Source: Fulvivirgaceae bacterium JP3-4
GTDB taxonomy: Bacteria; Bacteroidota; Bacteroidia; Cytophagales; Cyclobacteriaceae
Assembly: GCA_029309925.1 (NCBI GenBank)
Contig: JARKND010000004.1
Location: 248,001-312,000, forward strand
Direction of reading: 5' to 3'
Length of the DNA: 64,000 nucleotides
Shown piece by piece: positions 10,635 to 15,704 of this stretch; position 1 is the first letter of the stretch; every line of letters begins with the position of its first letter. Under the pieces are notes generated by a model. It saw only the letters and a list, made by a program, of their open reading frames with translations, made no database searches and was not told the DNA's origin. The translations under genes and the position numbers were made by a program.

Positions 10635-12323
10635 TTATGCAGCTACTGTTGTCGTTGTGGCTTGTTGTTCTTTAAGCGCGCGTCTGAGAATCTTCCCGAC
10701 ATTCGTCTTCGGCAGTTCAGGCCTGAATTCAACGTGCTTGGGCACTTTATAATTCGTCAGATTTTCATGACAGTATTTAAGTAGCTCGTCAGCAGTAAGG
10801 CTTTGATCCTTTTTCACAACGAATATTTTGATGACTTCACCTGAGCGGCTATCCGGCACCCCTATCGCTGCCACCTCGAGAACTTTCGGATGCGTTGCTA
10901 CAACATTTTCAATTTCGTTCGGGAACACATTGAAGCCTGAAACCTTGATCATATCTTTCTTGCGATCGACAATTTTGAAATATCCTTCTTTATCCATCAC
11001 GCCAATGTCGCCTGTGCGGAACCATCCGCCTTCAAAAAATACTCCCGCATTGTCAGAGTTCCAGTAACCGCGCATTACCTGAGGACCACGTGCGCAGATC
11101 TCCCCTGTCTCGCCCTGTGTGAGTTGATTTCCGTTATCATCGAAAATAGCGACTTCTGTACTTGGCATCGGAATCCCGATTGTTCCTTGTTTGTGTTGTC
11201 CGTCAAGTGGATTGCAACAGAGCACTGGAGAAGTCTCGCTCAAGCCGTAGCCTTCAATGAGTGGAGTGCCGGTAACTTCTTTCCACTTTTTTGCCACCAC
11301 ATCCTGAACGGCCATCGCTCCGGCTACTGCGCCACGCAAATGACTAAAATCCAGTTTATGAAATTCTGGTCTGTTTAAGAGCCCATTAAATAACGTATTA
11401 ACACCTGTAATGATAGAAAACTTATGCTTCCTCAACTCTTTGCAGAAGGCAGGCATGTCACGCGGATTGGTGATCATCACGTTTTTCACACCGGTGCTGA
11501 ACATCAAAAGGCCATTGACGGTCAGCGCAAAAATGTGATACATCGGAATGGCTGTGATGATCAGGTCATCACCGTTAGGACTCATGTACGGCTTAAACCA
11601 GTGACGGATCATGGCGTTGTGCGCCACAAGGTTTGCGTGTGAAAGTTGCGCACCTTTCGACACTCCCGTTGTTCCACCTGTGTATTGAAGCACGGCCAGG
11701 TCCTGGACATTCACTTCCGGCTTTTTGAATGGCAGCGATGCACCTTTCTTCAGCGCCTTGTTGAACGGAATTGCATTCGGGAGGCTGTAGGCCGGCACCA
11801 TCTTCTTCACATTCTTTACAATAAAGTTGACAAGCGGTGCTTTCAATCCACCAAGCATATCGCCAAGCTGTGTAATGATCACATGCCTGATCTTAGTATT
11901 TGCAATGATCTTTTCGAGGTTGGAAGCAAAGTTTGCAACGATCACAATGGCGAGCGCCCCGGAGTCTCTGAACTGATGTTCCATCTCACGCGGTGTGTAC
12001 AACGGGTTGGTGTTCACCACGATCAGGCCTGCACGCAGCGCCCCAAGAAATGCAATTGGAAACTGAAGGAGGTTTGGCATCTGGATAGCAATCCGATCGC
12101 CTTTCTGCAATTTCAGTTCCTGCTGCAGATAAGCCGCAAAGTTTCGCGACAGTTCATCCACTTGCGCATAGGTCAACCGTGCGCCCATGTTTTCAAAGGC
12201 TACCCGATCCTTATACTTTTTACAACTCTCGTCAAAAATTTCAGTGACGGAATTGTATTCATACAAAGGGATTTCGTGAGGCGTGCCAGCAGGGTAGTGT
12301 TTGAACCAAGGGAAATCTTTCAT
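10635..12323 (-). CDS. fadD: Long-chain-fatty-acid-CoA ligase (AMP-forming)
   Basis: 562-aa member of the ANL superfamily that activates fatty acids to acyl-CoA through an acyl-adenylate. The P-loop-like motif YTGGTTGVSKGA lies near residue 215. The A5 motif GYGLSETSP and the hinge/A8 region GWFRTGDIGVMDKEGYFKIVDR are present, as is the C-terminal catalytic Lys in PKTNVGKILRR. Overall similarity to E. coli FadD in length and motif spacing supports long-chain specificity, but chain length is inferred. No partner beta-oxidation genes are nearby. It heads a unit with the PD40 protein. Confidence 0.92.
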   Translation of the reverse strand: MKDFPWFKHYPAGTPHEIPLYEYNSVTEIFDESCKKYKDRVAFENMGARLTYAQVDELSRNFAAYLQQELKLQKGDRIAIQMPNLLQFPIAFLGALRAGLIVVNTNPLYTPREMEHQFRDSGALAIVIVANFASNLEKIIANTKIRHVIITQLGDMLGGLKAPLVNFIVKNVKKMVPAYSLPNAIPFNKALKKGASLPFKKPEVNVQDLAVLQYTGGTTGVSKGAQLSHANLVAHNAMIRHWFKPYMSPNGDDLIITAIPMYHIFALTVNGLLMFSTGVKNVMITNPRDMPAFCKELRKHKFSIITGVNTLFNGLLNRPEFHKLDFSHLRGAVAGAMAVQDVVAKKWKEVTGTPLIEGYGLSETSPVLCCNPLDGQHKQGTIGIPMPSTEVAIFDDNGNQLTQGETGEICARGPQVMRGYWNSDNAGVFFEGGWFRTGDIGVMDKEGYFKIVDRKKDMIKVSGFNVFPNEIENVVATHPKVLEVAAIGVPDSRSGEVIKIFVVKKDQSLTADELLKYCHENLTNYKVPKHVEFRPELPKTNVGKILRRALKEQQATTTTVAA

Positions 12324-12397
12324 AATGATGGTTTGAGTTTAGAGCAAGATTTTCACTACTCCAAAGCAAACGATTGTTTGGCATTCAATCAAGTAAA

Positions 12398-12435
12398 AGT
12401 TGATCCGTTAATTCGTTGACTAGTTGATCCGTTAG
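12398..12435. repeat. Single arm of the GTTGATCCG iterated-word repeat
   Basis: A short run of the words GTTGATCCG, TTAATTCG, TTGACTAG, TTGATCCG, the same vocabulary as the longer inverted elements at 33985, 46571 and 47712. No convincing inverted partner is seen within 300 bp, so it is a solitary or decayed copy. The rest of the interval from 12324 to 12540 shows nothing else I can name. Confidence 0.5.
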
Positions 12436-12540
12436 ACACAGATCAAAGTTTGAAGGTTAGAATTCTAGAAATCGCGAGAAAAATGAATGACGGAAAATAG
12501 ACGGAGTAATAAGTTTCATCATGCCCGAAGGGCACCGCAT

Positions 12541-12567
12541 CAGACTCCGGAGGAGTCTGTGTTTTTA
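12541..12567 (+). terminator. Terminator-like hairpin in a gene-free region
   Basis: A perfect 8-bp stem CAGACTCC/GGAGTCTG with a 3-nt loop is followed by TGTTTTT. A weaker near-copy (GACTCCGGAGG then CTGTTTTTA) follows at 12600-12626. A small palindrome GCCCGAAGGGC lies just upstream at 12527. There is no plus-strand gene before it, so it is either a decorative intergenic palindrome or the end of an unannotated short transcript. Confidence 0.4.
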
Positions 12568-12626
12568 AGAATCCATGTTCGAATGTTGGGAACAACATTA
12601 GACTCCGGAGGTGTCCCCTGTTTTTA

Positions 12627-12666
12627 AACCCACCCTGGATCGATCCCTATCGACACAAGGTGGGTT
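12627..12666 (-). other. Inverted repeat 3' of tRNA-like RNA 1
   Basis: 8-bp arms AACCCACC and GGTGGGTT enclose 24 nt containing the palindrome GGATCGATCC. It lies about 35 bp beyond the 3' end of the first tRNA-like RNA on the same strand and could be a processing or termination hairpin. Only TTTA follows it, so a classical terminator is doubtful. Confidence 0.35.
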
Positions 12667-12702
12667 AGCTCTAAATAACTCATTAACCTAAACTGAGCTT
12701 AG

Positions 12703-12874
12703 CTGTAGGAGAAGGGGTCGAACCTTCATGGAGCGGTTAGGTGAACCTGATCCTGGTAGTTTAGTCTATCAGGAACAGGAGACTTTCTTCCGTCCCAACC
12801 GCTCAACATGTGAGCGTATCGGGATCTCCACCCACGAGACCGGTGGGCATGTCTGCCAGTTTCATCATCCTACA
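12703..12874 (-). ncRNA. tRNA-like structured RNA 1 (Leu-like body, 103-nt variable region)
   Basis: Read on the minus strand, the 172-nt unit folds as a class II tRNA with an enormous variable region. The acceptor TGTAGGA/TCCTACA is a perfect 7 bp. The D arm has ATG/CAT around AAACTGGCAGA, as in tRNA-Leu. A 5-bp anticodon-position stem CCCAC/GTGGG carries the loop CGGTCTC. The T arm is GAAGG-TTCGACC-CCTTC. Position 73 is G, followed by CTA rather than CCA. The variable region (12728-12830) is closed by TGGAG/CTCCA directly beside the anticodon stem and holds further helices (8-bp GAGCGGTT/AACCGCTC, and CCTGAT/ATCAGG). U33 is missing and the loop would read GTC, so decoding is doubtful. Called a structured tRNA-like RNA, not a normal tRNA. 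Confidence 0.65.
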
Positions 12875-13015
12875 ATGAAAAATCCAATAATTAATAACCA
12901 AATTCCAAAAATCTGTCTCAAAGATTTCTGCCTTGAATGGCCGTCTGCCACTTTTCGTCCCGACACTTTTCGCTGGCGCTCAAGCGCGGGACCAAATTGC
13001 ACATTCGCGCAAGTT

Positions 13016-13165
13016 TGGCTGTAGAGGGAGGGGTCGAACCTCCACGAGGAAGTTAGCTACAGGACATAAAGAGAACATTTAGTGGTCAATCCGTTATCCT
13101 GCGTTTATCCTTTGCTCCTCACCCCCGAGACAGGAGGGTATGTCTGCCAATTTCACCACCCTACA
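13016..13165 (-). ncRNA. tRNA-like structured RNA 2 (Leu-like body, 78-nt variable region, encoded CCA)
   Basis: Second copy of the same architecture on the minus strand. The acceptor is TGTAGGG/CTCTACA (7 bp with one G-T). The D arm is GTG/CAT around AAATTGGCAGA, the anticodon-position stem CCCTC/GGGGG has loop CTGTCTC, and the T arm is GGAGG-TTCGACC-CCTCC. G73 is followed by an encoded CCA (13016-13018). The variable region (13044-13121) is closed by GAGGA/TCCTC. Acceptor, T and variable-arm stems differ from copy 1 by mostly compensatory changes, which argues for a conserved fold. Here U33 is present, giving a nominal anticodon GUC, an Asp anticodon on a Leu-like body, with unusual U37. 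Function unknown. Confidence 0.65.
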
Positions 13166-13187
13166 GTGTGTGTAAGATCCATTCCCC

Positions 13188-13462
13188 TACTTGTCTGCCC
13201 GTCATTCCGAGCTCTCGAGGAACACCACCCTACAGTGTAAAATTTCAATAATCAATAACCAAAATTCAAATTCGGTTTTAGAGCGACCAGGTAAGTCCCC
13301 GACTGGGAGTACCCTCCTGTAGTTTGCTCCCGCCTTGTCTGCCCGTCATCCCGAGTTGTCATTTCGGGTTTTCGAGAAACGAGAAACGAGGAACACCACC
13401 CTACAGTGTAAAATTTCAATAATCAATAACCAAAATTCAAATTCGGTTTTAGAGCGACCAGG
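13188..13462. repeat. Duplicated leader plus truncated 5' end of the tRNA-like unit
   Basis: A 75-bp segment is repeated exactly at 13217-13291 and 13388-13462. Each is preceded by the related text TTGTCTGCCCGTCAT and followed by similar sequence (AAGTCCCCGACTGGGAG versus GATTTCCCGGCTGGAAA). Read on the minus strand, each copy carries an AT-rich leader (GGTTATTGATTATTG) and then the first 12 nt of the tRNA-like RNA (TGTAGGGTGGTG), after which homology stops. A matching leader precedes RNA 1 (about 12875-12915). The copies therefore look like leader-plus-5'-end remnants of a multiplying unit. Nothing else is recognisable in 13463-13610. Confidence 0.75.
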
Positions 13463-13633
13463 CGATTTCCCGGCTGGAAAGGCCTCAAAATTTCAATTTT
13501 CAAATCTTCACATTTCAACTTATCCCCGAACACCCGTTTGGTGTCCCGTTGTAAATTCTTTAACAAAGTAACGTAAAGACTGGTAGTTGGTGCAATAAAG
13601 TGAGTGATTAATTGTACAATTTTTAATAATTGT

Positions 13634-13651
13634 TAGTATTTTTGAATACTA
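13634..13651 (+). promoter_or_regulatory. lrp promoter -7 box within a perfect inverted repeat
   Basis: TAGTATT-TTTG-AATACTA is a perfect 7-bp inverted repeat. It contains TATTTTTG (13637-13644), an exact match to the -7 consensus, with a TTG (13612-13614) 22 bp upstream as a possible -33. The repeat covers the promoter core 20 bp before the ATG. It is a good candidate for an autoregulatory operator bound by the Lrp-type protein. Confidence 0.55.
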
Positions 13652-13671
13652 AACAAAAACCAGATTACACC

Positions 13672-14139
13672 ATGGCTGAAAATTTGAAAGTTGACAATGT
13701 CGACCTGAAGATTCTCGAAATTCTCATGCAGGATGCCAAGAAACCCTACACAGAAGTGGCAAAAAAGGCCTTCGTATCAGGCGGCACTGTGCACGTCCGT
13801 ATGAACAAACTCGAAGAAGCGGGCATTGTGGAAAAGACCACGCTCAAAGTAAACTACGCCAAGCTCGGTTACGACATCACTGCGTTCATCGGAATCTTTC
13901 TTCAGAAGAGCGCCCTGTACGACCAGGTAATGGCCACCCTGAAGACCATTCCGGAAATCACAAACATCCACTACACAACGGGCAACTATAGCATGTTTGT
14001 AAAAATCCACTGCAAGGACACAAACCACTTAAAGATTGTGCTTCACGACAAAATCCAGCAGGTGGAGGGCATTGAGCGTACGGAAACAATGATCTCATTG
14101 GAAGAAAGTCTGGACCGCAGCCTTAACCTCACCACATAG
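13672..14139 (+). CDS. Lrp/AsnC family transcriptional regulator
   Basis: 155-aa cytoplasmic DNA-binding protein with an N-terminal winged HTH (VDLKILEILMQDAKKPYTEV, then GTVHVRMNKLEEAGIV) and a C-terminal RAM/AsnC ligand domain (NIHYTTGNYSMFVKI). The start MAENLKVDNV at 13672 fits family alignments. An in-frame TTG at 13630 would add 14 residues read from within the promoter palindrome and is rejected. The protein sits directly upstream of the suf operon in the same orientation. A role in controlling those genes is plausible but is inferred from position only. Confidence 0.88.
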   Translation: MAENLKVDNVDLKILEILMQDAKKPYTEVAKKAFVSGGTVHVRMNKLEEAGIVEKTTLKVNYAKLGYDITAFIGIFLQKSALYDQVMATLKTIPEITNIHYTTGNYSMFVKIHCKDTNHLKIVLHDKIQQVEGIERTETMISLEESLDRSLNLTT

Positions 14140-14215
14140 AGGCGATTACACACGATTTCGATACTTCTCTGACTATTTCAAGGCGCAAAAGAACCTTAAA
14201 ATCGGGTTTTTGTTA

Positions 14216-14255
14216 TAGATTTGTAGGTTAATTTAAAATTAGTCTAAATAGACTA
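14216..14255 (+). promoter_or_regulatory. suf operon promoter and operator-like palindrome
   Basis: TAGATTTG (14216-14223) matches the -7 consensus. Just downstream, a perfect 7-bp inverted repeat TAGTCTA-AA-TAGACTA (14240-14255) ends 3 bp before the sufB ATG. A repressor bound there would block early elongation, and as RNA the repeat could mask the start codon. The shape resembles sites of Rrf2-family Fe-S regulators, but the cognate protein is not identified and the adjacent Lrp protein is an alternative. Confidence 0.5.
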
Positions 14256-14258
14256 CTA

Positions 14259-15704
14259 ATGAGTAAAGACAATCAGGTTTTAGAGGAGTTAACATCGAAG
14301 GAATACGAGCACGGTTGGACGACCAACTTTGAAACCGATTCCGCCCCAAAAGGCCTAAATGAGGACATTATCCGGTTTATTTCTTCAAAAAAGAATGAAC
14401 CTGAATGGCTGCTTGAGTGGCGTCTGAAGGCTTATCGCCAGTGGACAAAAATGAAGGAGCCAAAATGGCCTAACGTAACCTATCCTGAGATCAATTATCA
14501 GGACGTAATCTATTACTCCGCTCCCAAGCAAAGCGCAAAGGCGAAAAAGCTTGAGGACGTTGACCCAGAATTGATTAAAACTTTCGAAAAATTAGGGATC
14601 AGCCTGACAGAGCAAAAGCGCCTGACCGGTGTTGCCGTTGACGCGGTGATCGACAGTGTTTCCGTTGCAACCACTTTCAAAGAAACGCTCGGTGAACTTG
14701 GAATTATCTTCTGCTCTTTCAGCGAGGCGGTTCAAAAACATCCTGATCTGATAAAGAAATATATGGGTTCCGTTGTCCCGGTGAATGACAACTATTTTGC
14801 AGCTCTTAACTCCGCGGTGTTTACGGATGGATCTTTTTGTTACATACCAAAAGGTGTTCGTTGCCCGATGGAGCTCTCAACGTATTTCCGAATCAACGCT
14901 GCCAATACGGGTCAGTTCGAGCGCACGCTGATCGTTGCCGATGAGGGGTCTTATGTTAGTTATCTCGAAGGCTGTACTGCACCGCAGCGCGATGAAAATC
15001 AGTTGCACGCTGCTGTAGTAGAGATCTATGCGATGAAGGATGCAACCGTGAAGTATTCAACGGTGCAGAACTGGTATCCTGGTGACAAAGAAGGAAAAGG
15101 CGGAATCTACAACTTTGTAACGAAGCGCGGATTGTGCTTTGGCGATAACTCAAAGATCAGCTGGACACAGGTTGAAACGGGTTCAGCCATCACATGGAAA
15201 TATCCGTCATGTGTGTTGAAAGGTGATAATTCATCTGGTGAATTTTATTCGGTTGCCGTCACAAATAATTACCAGCAAGCCGACACCGGAACGAAGATGA
15301 TCCACATCGGGAGAAACACGAAGTCGAGAATTGTATCGAAAGGTATTTCTGCCGGCCATTCTCAAAACAGTTACCGTGGTCAGGTGCACATCATGAAACG
15401 TGCAACCGGAGCGAGAAACTTTTCGCAGTGCGATTCATTGCTGATGGGCGACAAGTGTGGCGCTCACACGTTCCCATACATCGATGTAGAAAATCCGTCT
15501 GCAAAAATCGAACACGAGGCAACAACATCAAAGATCGGTGAAGACCAGATCTTCTATTGTTTACAACGCGGTATCGATGAAGAATCAGCCGTGGCGTTGA
15601 TCGTGAATGGTTACGCAAAGGAAGTGTTGAATCAATTGCCGATGGAGTTTGCGGTGGAAGCTCAGAAATTGTTGGCGTTGACGTTGGAGGGAAGCGTTGG
15701 ATAA
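14259..15704 (+). CDS. sufB: Fe-S cluster assembly scaffold SufB
   Basis: 481-aa cytoplasmic scaffold subunit of the SufBCD complex, on which Fe-S clusters are built with sulfur from SufS/SufE. Typical SufB segments are present: [43 protein letters not shown] and the C-terminal [12 protein letters not shown]. Length is standard. It is first in a run sufB-sufC-sufD-sufS on the plus strand. The gap to sufC (125 bp) is filled by an AT-rich iterated inverted repeat, unlike the tight spacing that follows. Confidence 0.97.

Follow-up and report, generated by a model that had tools for sequence, protein, structure and literature searches.

Few tRNA-like RNAs are charged without taking part in decoding, and the literature searched gave none of the shape described here. 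The cell-wall transfer RNA (tRNA) for glycine of staphylococci is a non-proteinogenic tRNA that is charged by a normal synthetase and kept off the ribosome; we know of no phage versions of such non-proteinogenic tRNAs and of no linkage between them and a regulator. Transfer-messenger RNA (tmRNA) carries a tag reading frame and has no anticodon arm. Some allo-tRNAs and irregular soil tRNAs are irregular, are encoded in polycistrons and are non-functional in E. coli translation (Mukai et al., 2017, as given in sections of PMC7609411). Here we describe two tRNA-like units in a stretch of 64,000 nucleotides (nt) from Fulvivirgaceae bacterium JP3-4 (GenBank assembly GCA_029309925.1, contig JARKND010000004.1, positions 248,001 to 312,000), referred to below as the window and numbered from its first letter. 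Both are members of a conserved family of tRNA-like RNAs, missed by ARAGORN and Rfam 15, which we tentatively read as accepting aspartate without decoding. The units and their parts are the following.

12703..12874, minus strand: tRNA-like RNA copy 1, type A, 172 nt to G73 (cloverleaf parse; 103.8 bits with the covariance model R1 described below; homologues).
13019..13165, minus strand: tRNA-like RNA copy 2, type B, with the inner GGAUUGACCAC motif, 147 nt to G73, then CCA (R1, 117.1 bits).
12836..12842, minus strand: anticodon loop of copy 1, CGGUCUC (G33, GUC, U37, C38).
13127..13133, minus strand: anticodon loop of copy 2, CUGUCUC (U33, GUC, U37, C38).
12728..12830, minus strand: variable region of copy 1, 103 nt, with a GGAG/CUCC base stem, a copy-specific hairpin, a distal hairpin and CCUAAC.
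13044..13121, minus strand: variable region of copy 2, 78 nt, with a GAGG/CCUC base stem, a GGAUAAA...GCUAAC internal loop, a CAGGA/UCCUG stem and the inner motif; type-B consensus.
13082..13092, minus strand: type-B inner motif GGATTGACCAC, common to phage copies.

A preliminary description, made from the letters of the window alone, had outlined both units, and they lie where it placed them, running from 12874 to 12703 (172 nt) and from 13165 to 13019 (147 nt, plus CCA). Each has a 7-bp acceptor, a Leu-type D arm, a 5-bp anticodon stem with a 7-nt loop, and a T stem of 5 bp with TTCGACC; the loops CGGTCTC and CTGTCTC and the oversized variable regions of 103 and 78 nt were likewise as it had them, the variable arm of copy 1 (type A) bearing an additional hairpin specific to that copy. 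ARAGORN called no tRNA and no tmRNA across the window, and Rfam 15 gave no tRNA (RF00005) in it at gathering score. Within 12300-14300 and up to E = 1, Rfam returned only a weak snoRNA match far under its gathering score, and a known RNA family or intron was rejected on this basis. At relative loci, ARAGORN called nothing in 19 and Rfam nothing in 16 of those.

Searches with blastn using copy 1 as query matched 40 of 59 genomes, its own counted, with many matches spanning just the 5' third or the 3' end. The covariance model R1 was based on 23 full units aligned with MAFFT without fitting to structure (alignment A2); it scored the window units at 117 and 104 bits and two ordinary host tRNA-Leu genes, assigned as such by ARAGORN, at 47 and 46 bits. 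In a sample of the phylum, 51 of 395 genomes passed 1e-12, 11 of them with only 59-68-bit matches of about 78-89 nt, which is the range of ordinary tRNAs. At 86 bits or more there were 40 of 395, comprising 9 from the host's own family, 5 from elsewhere in the order, 23 from elsewhere in the class and 3 from another class. Within the host's family, R1 matched 98 of 118 genomes, among them 92 of 106 good ones, and found as many as six copies per genome; the remaining 14 good genomes gave no match at 1e-14. Scanned by pattern, 84,980 named genomes yielded at least 80 contigs (at least 119 stretches), all from Bacteroidota or Ignavibacteriales among the matches listed. The structured homologues in relatives that the preliminary description had called for are thus present. 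The cellular query found no match in INPHARED or PLSDB, and a search of the open-access literature, with most subscription journals outside its scope, gave no account of such an RNA among the matches listed. Among individual loci, Flammeovirga pacifica has five type-B copies at an exact spacing of 197 nt (L065:3686-4630).

The fold was examined in 219 parsed members, for which the parser required at least five of seven acceptor pairs, at least four of five anticodon-stem pairs and G39. In these members and in a fixed register, each position of the acceptor, anticodon and T stems is paired in 206 to 219 of 219, and the family has the features of a class II tRNA, namely a 7-bp acceptor, 5-bp T and anticodon stems, the D- and T-loop motifs and covarying stems. 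Pairs 3-70 to 7-66 vary with compensation and G2-C71 is constant (219 of 219). In A2, 96.1% of cells are paired, versus 90.6% in shuffled and 54-60% in slid alignments, and changes on both sides of a pair occur in 39 cells versus 15.5 in shuffles; the count of further pair types showed no excess (20 versus 20.0). In a second alignment (A5), which was fitted to the model, 17 of 27 pairs changed on both sides and five of five measures lay above all 500 shuffles. The two window copies themselves differ by compensatory changes at acceptor pair 7-66 (A-U/G-C), at T pair 50-64 (A-U/G-C) and at two pairs of the variable base stem, as had been noted, and the selection for structure proposed on that basis is supported by the covarying stems of both alignments, which do not decay randomly. 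Pairing is looser in the T and variable base stems of phage copies, where each pair holds in 50-65 of 65, and some of these copies may take another register; some phage copies have an extra hairpin in the D loop. The pairing switch suggested for copy 1 did not hold up as a conserved feature, because its hairpin lies in a copy-specific insert that is longer than one base in only 3 of 23 aligned sequences.

The anticodon loop and position 73 carry the evidence for aspartate. Five strong determinants of aspartate identity are G73, G34, U35, C36 and C38, to which G10 is added in bacteria (sections of PMC9976931). Among the parsed members, G73 is present in 218, G34 in 214, and U35, C36 and C38 in all 219. 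The same positions (G73, G34, U35, C36, C38) are kept in 47, 42, 47, 47 and 47 of the 47 members outside the first search pattern and in 53, 50, 53, 53 and 53 of the 53 members of A5. The earlier notion of a nominal Asp anticodon on a Leu body, in a potentially aminoacylatable RNA, is supported by these identity positions. The commonest loop of the family, CUGUCUC (148 of 219), is that of the host tRNA-Asp, CUGUCAC, with A37 replaced by U, and U37 is found in 216 of 219 members. At position 33, U is present in 117 of the 154 cellular and 54 of the 65 phage members, and the remaining 37 and 11, respectively, have another base. Decoding tRNAs have U33 and a purine at position 37; the free position 33 and the U37 found here argue against decoding, and we take the loop to be recognised by a protein instead of the ribosome. 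Members without G34 (L061:3537-3656, L081:5159-5275, L223, L227 and L220) have the loops CGAUCUC, CUCUCUC or CUUUCUC, and are natural variants suited to a charging test.

The 3' end and the flanks of the RNA were also compared. C74 is encoded in all 219 parsed members, as it is in the 17 ordinary host tRNAs inspected, and CA mostly is not, so the RNA follows the 3'-end habit of host tRNAs. The CCA singled out earlier in copy 2 is indeed encoded there, but it is not special, as position 75 is mixed across the family (A22 T21 C7 G3, n = 53). In 72 of 149 cellular copies the 80 nt that precede the RNA contain TAnnTTTG, which we take to be the Bacteroidota -7 element, versus 10.3 in shuffles; it lies upstream of 6 of 61 phage copies versus 2.55 in shuffles. 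A terminator-like hairpin lies 3' of 109 of 152 cellular copies (10 in shuffles) and of 3 of 64 phage copies. Taken together, these counts make many cellular copies look like single genes, probably transcribed from their own promoters, and make phage copies look like parts of longer transcripts. A boxA-like leader was considered and dropped (2 of 149 upstream regions, 0.2 in shuffles, both from related loci).

Variable regions of cellular members span 39-123 nt. The variable arm is built from a base stem of 4 bp, a conserved internal loop in which GGAYAAA lies opposite CUAAC, and distal hairpins that vary freely in length. Type B, which includes copy 2, adds a GGRUUGACCAC-like motif; GACCAC is present in 110 of the 219 parsed members and missing from 109. 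A perfect palindrome of at least 8 nt occurs in the loop after GACCAC in 37 of 46 distinct phage type-B loops, versus 3.4% of shuffles, and phage hairpins of 3 bp and 4 nt have a self-complementary tetramer in 26 of 27 cases versus 1.7 expected. The self-complementary loop is thus kept in phage type B while its sequence changes, and since loop-loop or duplex dimers would need a palindrome and a hairpin alone would not, the phage palindromes suggest homodimers. Cellular type-B loops have such a palindrome in 1 of 43. In cellular type A it is found in 19 of 79 distinct distal regions versus 10% when shuffled, and most of these are one motif, CGAGCUCG, from related genera; a GAGCUC or CGAGCUCG palindrome recurs in the distal loop of type-A copies from the host's family (e.g., L028, L094, L097, L062, L055) and accounts for 24 of the 79 distinct distal regions. 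A tag reading frame in the variable arm was rejected, as the constant A(C/T)AAA alternates between C and T (judged by eye) and gives no fixed stop. Inspection by eye found no pairing of the GUCUC loop with a conserved element of the same RNA; GACCAC holds GAC and is absent from type A.

Phage copies came from 81 IMG/VR contigs fetched by two pattern scans, so that the share with the RNA is no prevalence: R1 scored 79 of them at 65 bits or more and one, cut by the contig end, at 55 bits, and matched contig L244 only at the level of an ordinary tRNA. Seven of nine proteins tested from viral contigs had PHROG matches, including terminase, helicase and recombination proteins. ARAGORN, run on 62 of the 81 stretches (some near-identical), found assigned canonical tRNAs in 36, none in 24 and an unassigned call only in 2; a tmRNA was present in 10 of the 62. 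Contig L158 carries 25 tRNAs, a tmRNA and GOLLD, and an ordinary tRNA-Asp(GUC) is also found in phages L154, L158, L166, L179, L185, L201, L202 and L203. One of two phage queries against INPHARED and PLSDB led to a 636-kb phage record and the other to none; the record holds one copy (100.7 bits) flanked by tRNAs, in which the loop after GACCAC is AATTAATT, a short low-complexity palindrome. The few other named phage neighbours are an RNase H-like and a cytidylyltransferase-like protein, most neighbours being without annotation. A gene common to the phage neighbourhoods was sought and rejected, as the largest cluster of open reading frames overlapped the RNA itself on the opposite strand.

In the window the gene order is sufB, Lrp, copy 2, copy 1 and an AMP-binding enzyme, and the following features surround the two copies.

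12626..12666, minus strand: terminator-like hairpin AACCCACC...GGGTGGGTT downstream of copy 1, read from the sequence; short T run, weak.
12878..12909, minus strand: A/T-rich element upstream of copy 1 (repeat family D2), recurring at 13239-13270 and 13410-13441.
13223..13234, minus strand: truncated 5' end, limited to the first 12 nt of a tRNA-like unit (repeat family D1, compared with copy 2); a second one at 13394-13405.
13630..14139, plus strand: Lrp/AsnC-family regulator, the divergent neighbour (Pfam, synteny, co-occurrence).

Direct repeats at 13216-13306 and 13387-13477, and at 13185-13216 and 13329-13360, contain the upstream element and the first 12 nt of the RNA, adjoin an intergenic repeat of the GTCATTCCGAG type and are probably remnants of duplicated units. 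A relative in the same genus has a degenerate third copy (L003:1430-1595, 64.7 bits) with altered D and anticodon arms; a hairpin resembling the terminator-like one of copy 1 also lies downstream in that locus.

Among 129 cellular loci (overlapping ones and loci sharing a genome included), 58 have a divergent Lrp/AsnC gene within 1 kb upstream. We searched the window Lrp protein and R1 in the same 99 genomes of the class, using strict RNA filters and an ortholog cut of at least 48% identity that was set after viewing the matches; the RNA was found in 20 genomes, and an Lrp ortholog in all 20 of these versus 5 of the 79 others. At 15 of 25 Lrp-ortholog loci the fetched flank holds the RNA, upstream and in divergent orientation, and two of the other ten end at a contig edge on the relevant side; five remoter Lrp loci (about 44% identity or less) showed no RNA. 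As sufB is in the fetched flank of only 3 of the 25, all from the host's family, linkage to Suf was rejected and Lrp is the better partner. A second conserved site lies between the gene for an RluD-like pseudouridine synthase (assigned by Pfam) and that for a large protein, with both present at 16 loci; the large downstream protein, for which Pfam gave no match, is presumably TamB. A search of the host for a paralogue of aspartyl-tRNA synthetase (AspRS) found only three class IIb synthetase genes, which were not told apart individually.

The reading that we favour, with less than even confidence, is that these are aspartate-accepting, non-decoding tRNA-like RNAs that act as a donor or signal and whose amount is set by Lrp. 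Small-RNA genes with a complete class II tRNA fold, often adjoining divergently a regulator of the amino-acid-responsive Lrp/AsnC type, would be transcribed in cells from their own promoters, and their products would mature like host tRNAs, with C74 encoded and C75 and A76 added. The host AspRS would recognise G73 and the G34-U35-C36/C38 loop and charge the RNA with aspartate. Because position 33 is unfixed, position 37 is U and the structured variable arm is large (39-123 nt), the charged RNA would be kept from decoding; it may then serve as an aspartate-charged donor or signal molecule, with the variable arm recruiting a partner and the Lrp-type regulator setting its amount. Phages would carry their versions among tRNAs and tmRNA or alone, and the self-complementary loop of most type-B phage copies would pair two molecules. 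A broader proposal is possible, though more doubtful: an undescribed class of amino-acid-controlled, aspartate-charged, non-decoding RNAs, found in Bacteroidota beside a dedicated Lrp and in phages beside translation RNAs, with a homodimeric phage form. If true, the presence of such an RNA in most genomes of a large bacterial family would imply a novel use of charged aspartate or a novel way of controlling AspRS, and the phage homologues, sometimes placed in large tRNA sets, would point to a phage need not secured by the host RNA.

Several points weigh against aspartate charging and Lrp control. AspRS normally encounters a short variable region. Pair 1-72 is U1-A72 in 214 of 219 members, whereas G1-C72 and G2-C71 are strictly conserved in bacterial tRNA-Asp (sections of PMC9976931), and G10 is in a minority (5 of 53 and 10 of 47). 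Conservation of the loop is partly selected for, since the search model and patterns contain it; most loci were fetched by a loop-containing pattern, and even the non-matching members were found with a loop-trained model. The loop could also be kept for another protein or RNA contact, and GUC alone is no proof of Asp, since allo-tRNAs, thought to be Ser acceptors, often bear it (sections of PMC7609411). Folding energy is better than in shuffles for copy 1 (z -3.2) and no better for copy 2 (z +0.34), so the case for structure rests on comparison, free energy alone being weak support. The co-occurrence of RNA and Lrp gives a Fisher value of 1.2e-16, which ignores shared ancestry and uses the post hoc identity cut, and the conserved Lrp neighbourhood does not prove regulation.

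The alternative that survives best, although unlikely, is a tRNA mimic, uncharged or charged incidentally, that binds or titrates a tRNA-handling protein such as AspRS, a modification enzyme or an anticodon nuclease, and that in phages would act as a decoy or counter-defence. A loop kept strictly despite the free position 33 is consistent with it, as are the palindrome in most phage type-B loops and the 24 of 62 scanned viral loci without a tRNA in the fetched stretch, along with 2 more that have nothing but an unassigned call. The conserved regulator neighbour and the occurrence in 98 of the 118 genomes from the host's family fit housekeeping better than a decoy, however, and the kept positions coincide with the identity set of a synthetase.

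A serine acceptor, charged by seryl-tRNA synthetase (SerRS) through G73 and the long variable arm like tRNA-Sec and allo-tRNAs, is less probable still. The family shares with the Ser set of PMC9976931, as given in the sections used, G73, G2-C71, R4-Y69 (210 of 219) and the large variable region, and a GUC anticodon is frequent in allo-tRNAs, for which a role as Ser isoacceptors with G73-type identity has been proposed (PMC7609411, same sections). Position 72 is mostly A instead of C, however, and at pair 11-24, where C11-G24 is expected, 58 of 65 have U-A and the other 7 have C-G; moreover, SerRS ignores the anticodon according to the same parts of PMC7609411, which leaves the near-invariant GUC and C38 unexplained.

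The preliminary description had also listed an unusual tRNA among its candidates, and this stays among the rivals as a decoding tRNA of unusual body for Asp codons, or for another amino acid there, which we consider improbable. GUC in 214 of 219 members would suit it, as would its retention within the large tRNA sets of phages L158, L166, L201 and L202; the near-constant U37 and the free position 33, at which 37 of 154 cellular members lack U, count against decoding, and an ordinary tRNA-Asp(GUC) is present in the same genome and in several of the same phages.

Quite improbable, too, is that the RNA binds the Lrp-type protein encoded next to it, as a sponge or corepressor whose tRNA fold serves for stability. 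The co-occurrence described above argues for such a role and holds also where RNA and Lrp are on separate contigs (genomes G133, G570, G600, G601 and G609, with contig ends nearby in G609 and G600), but this reading leaves the Asp identity positions unexplained, no Lrp was seen among the identified neighbours of the phage RNA, and Lrp proteins are DNA binders. A decaying or selfish tRNA-derived element (the selfish one being the last candidate of the preliminary description), for which one could cite the tandem copies, the truncated 5' fragments near 13223 and 13394 and the degenerate copy in L003, is very improbable in view of the compensatory changes, the conserved place beside one regulator across families, the near-universal presence in the host's family, the promoter and terminator signals, and the lack of a mobile-element gene among the identified recurring neighbours (other neighbours not annotated).

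Other tRNA-capped RNAs were seen in the phage material. A second and common class has a near-constant acceptor (AGUCAGG/CCUGACU), a Leu-type D arm and a T arm, with a hypervariable centre in place of the anticodon arm. In IMG/VR it occurs in L151:5128-8251, L154, L195, L196, L243, L252, L301, L308, L334 and others, with several differing copies per phage; L151 has six and L334 at least five. A scan found at least 120 stretches; 207 starts gave 135 distinct stretches, a few of which are plainly under or over length, A73 is present in at least 107 of the 135, and the Rfam tRNA model weakly catches a few of these RNAs. A third such RNA (L193:4515-4660, L161:7212-7350) has the acceptor CAAGGAG/CUCCUUG or CUCUUUG and a long centre.

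Compared with known systems, the family resembles the staphylococcal cell-wall tRNA-Gly in the proposed property of being charged and kept off the ribosome, and differs in that the latter is normal-sized. It shares with tmRNA the character of a stable tRNA-like RNA and its presence in some of the same phage stretches, whereas it has a full cloverleaf including the anticodon arm. The homo-oligomeric RNAs GOLLD and ROOL (PMC12286853) are likewise carried by phages beside tRNAs (GOLLD in L158) and may share self-association with the phage form, but are far larger and not tRNA-shaped. Allo-tRNAs are also class II, with Ser-type G73 identity and an anticodon, in many cases GUC, at odds with the body; their acceptor branch is 8/4 or 9/3 (sections of PMC7609411), unlike the 7/5 of this family, which holds in 206-219 of 219 per pair, 7/5 being the register fitted. 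Their hosts are Clostridia, Proteobacteria and Acidobacteria, and a word search of the same source gave no Bacteroidetes or phage. With bacterial tRNA-Leu the family has in common the D arm AUGAAAYUGGCAGACAU, the 7/5 branch and the class II variable arm, and it differs in having G73 instead of A73 (218 of 219), a GUC loop and a variable region about 2-8 times the usual 15-20 nt. Finally, it shares with tRNA-Asp (GUC) the anticodon loop save position 37 and often 33, C38, G73, G2-C71 and, as in host tRNAs, the encoded C74, and departs from it in the Leu-like class II body, U1-A72, the unfixed position 10, U37 and the variable region of 39-123 nt.
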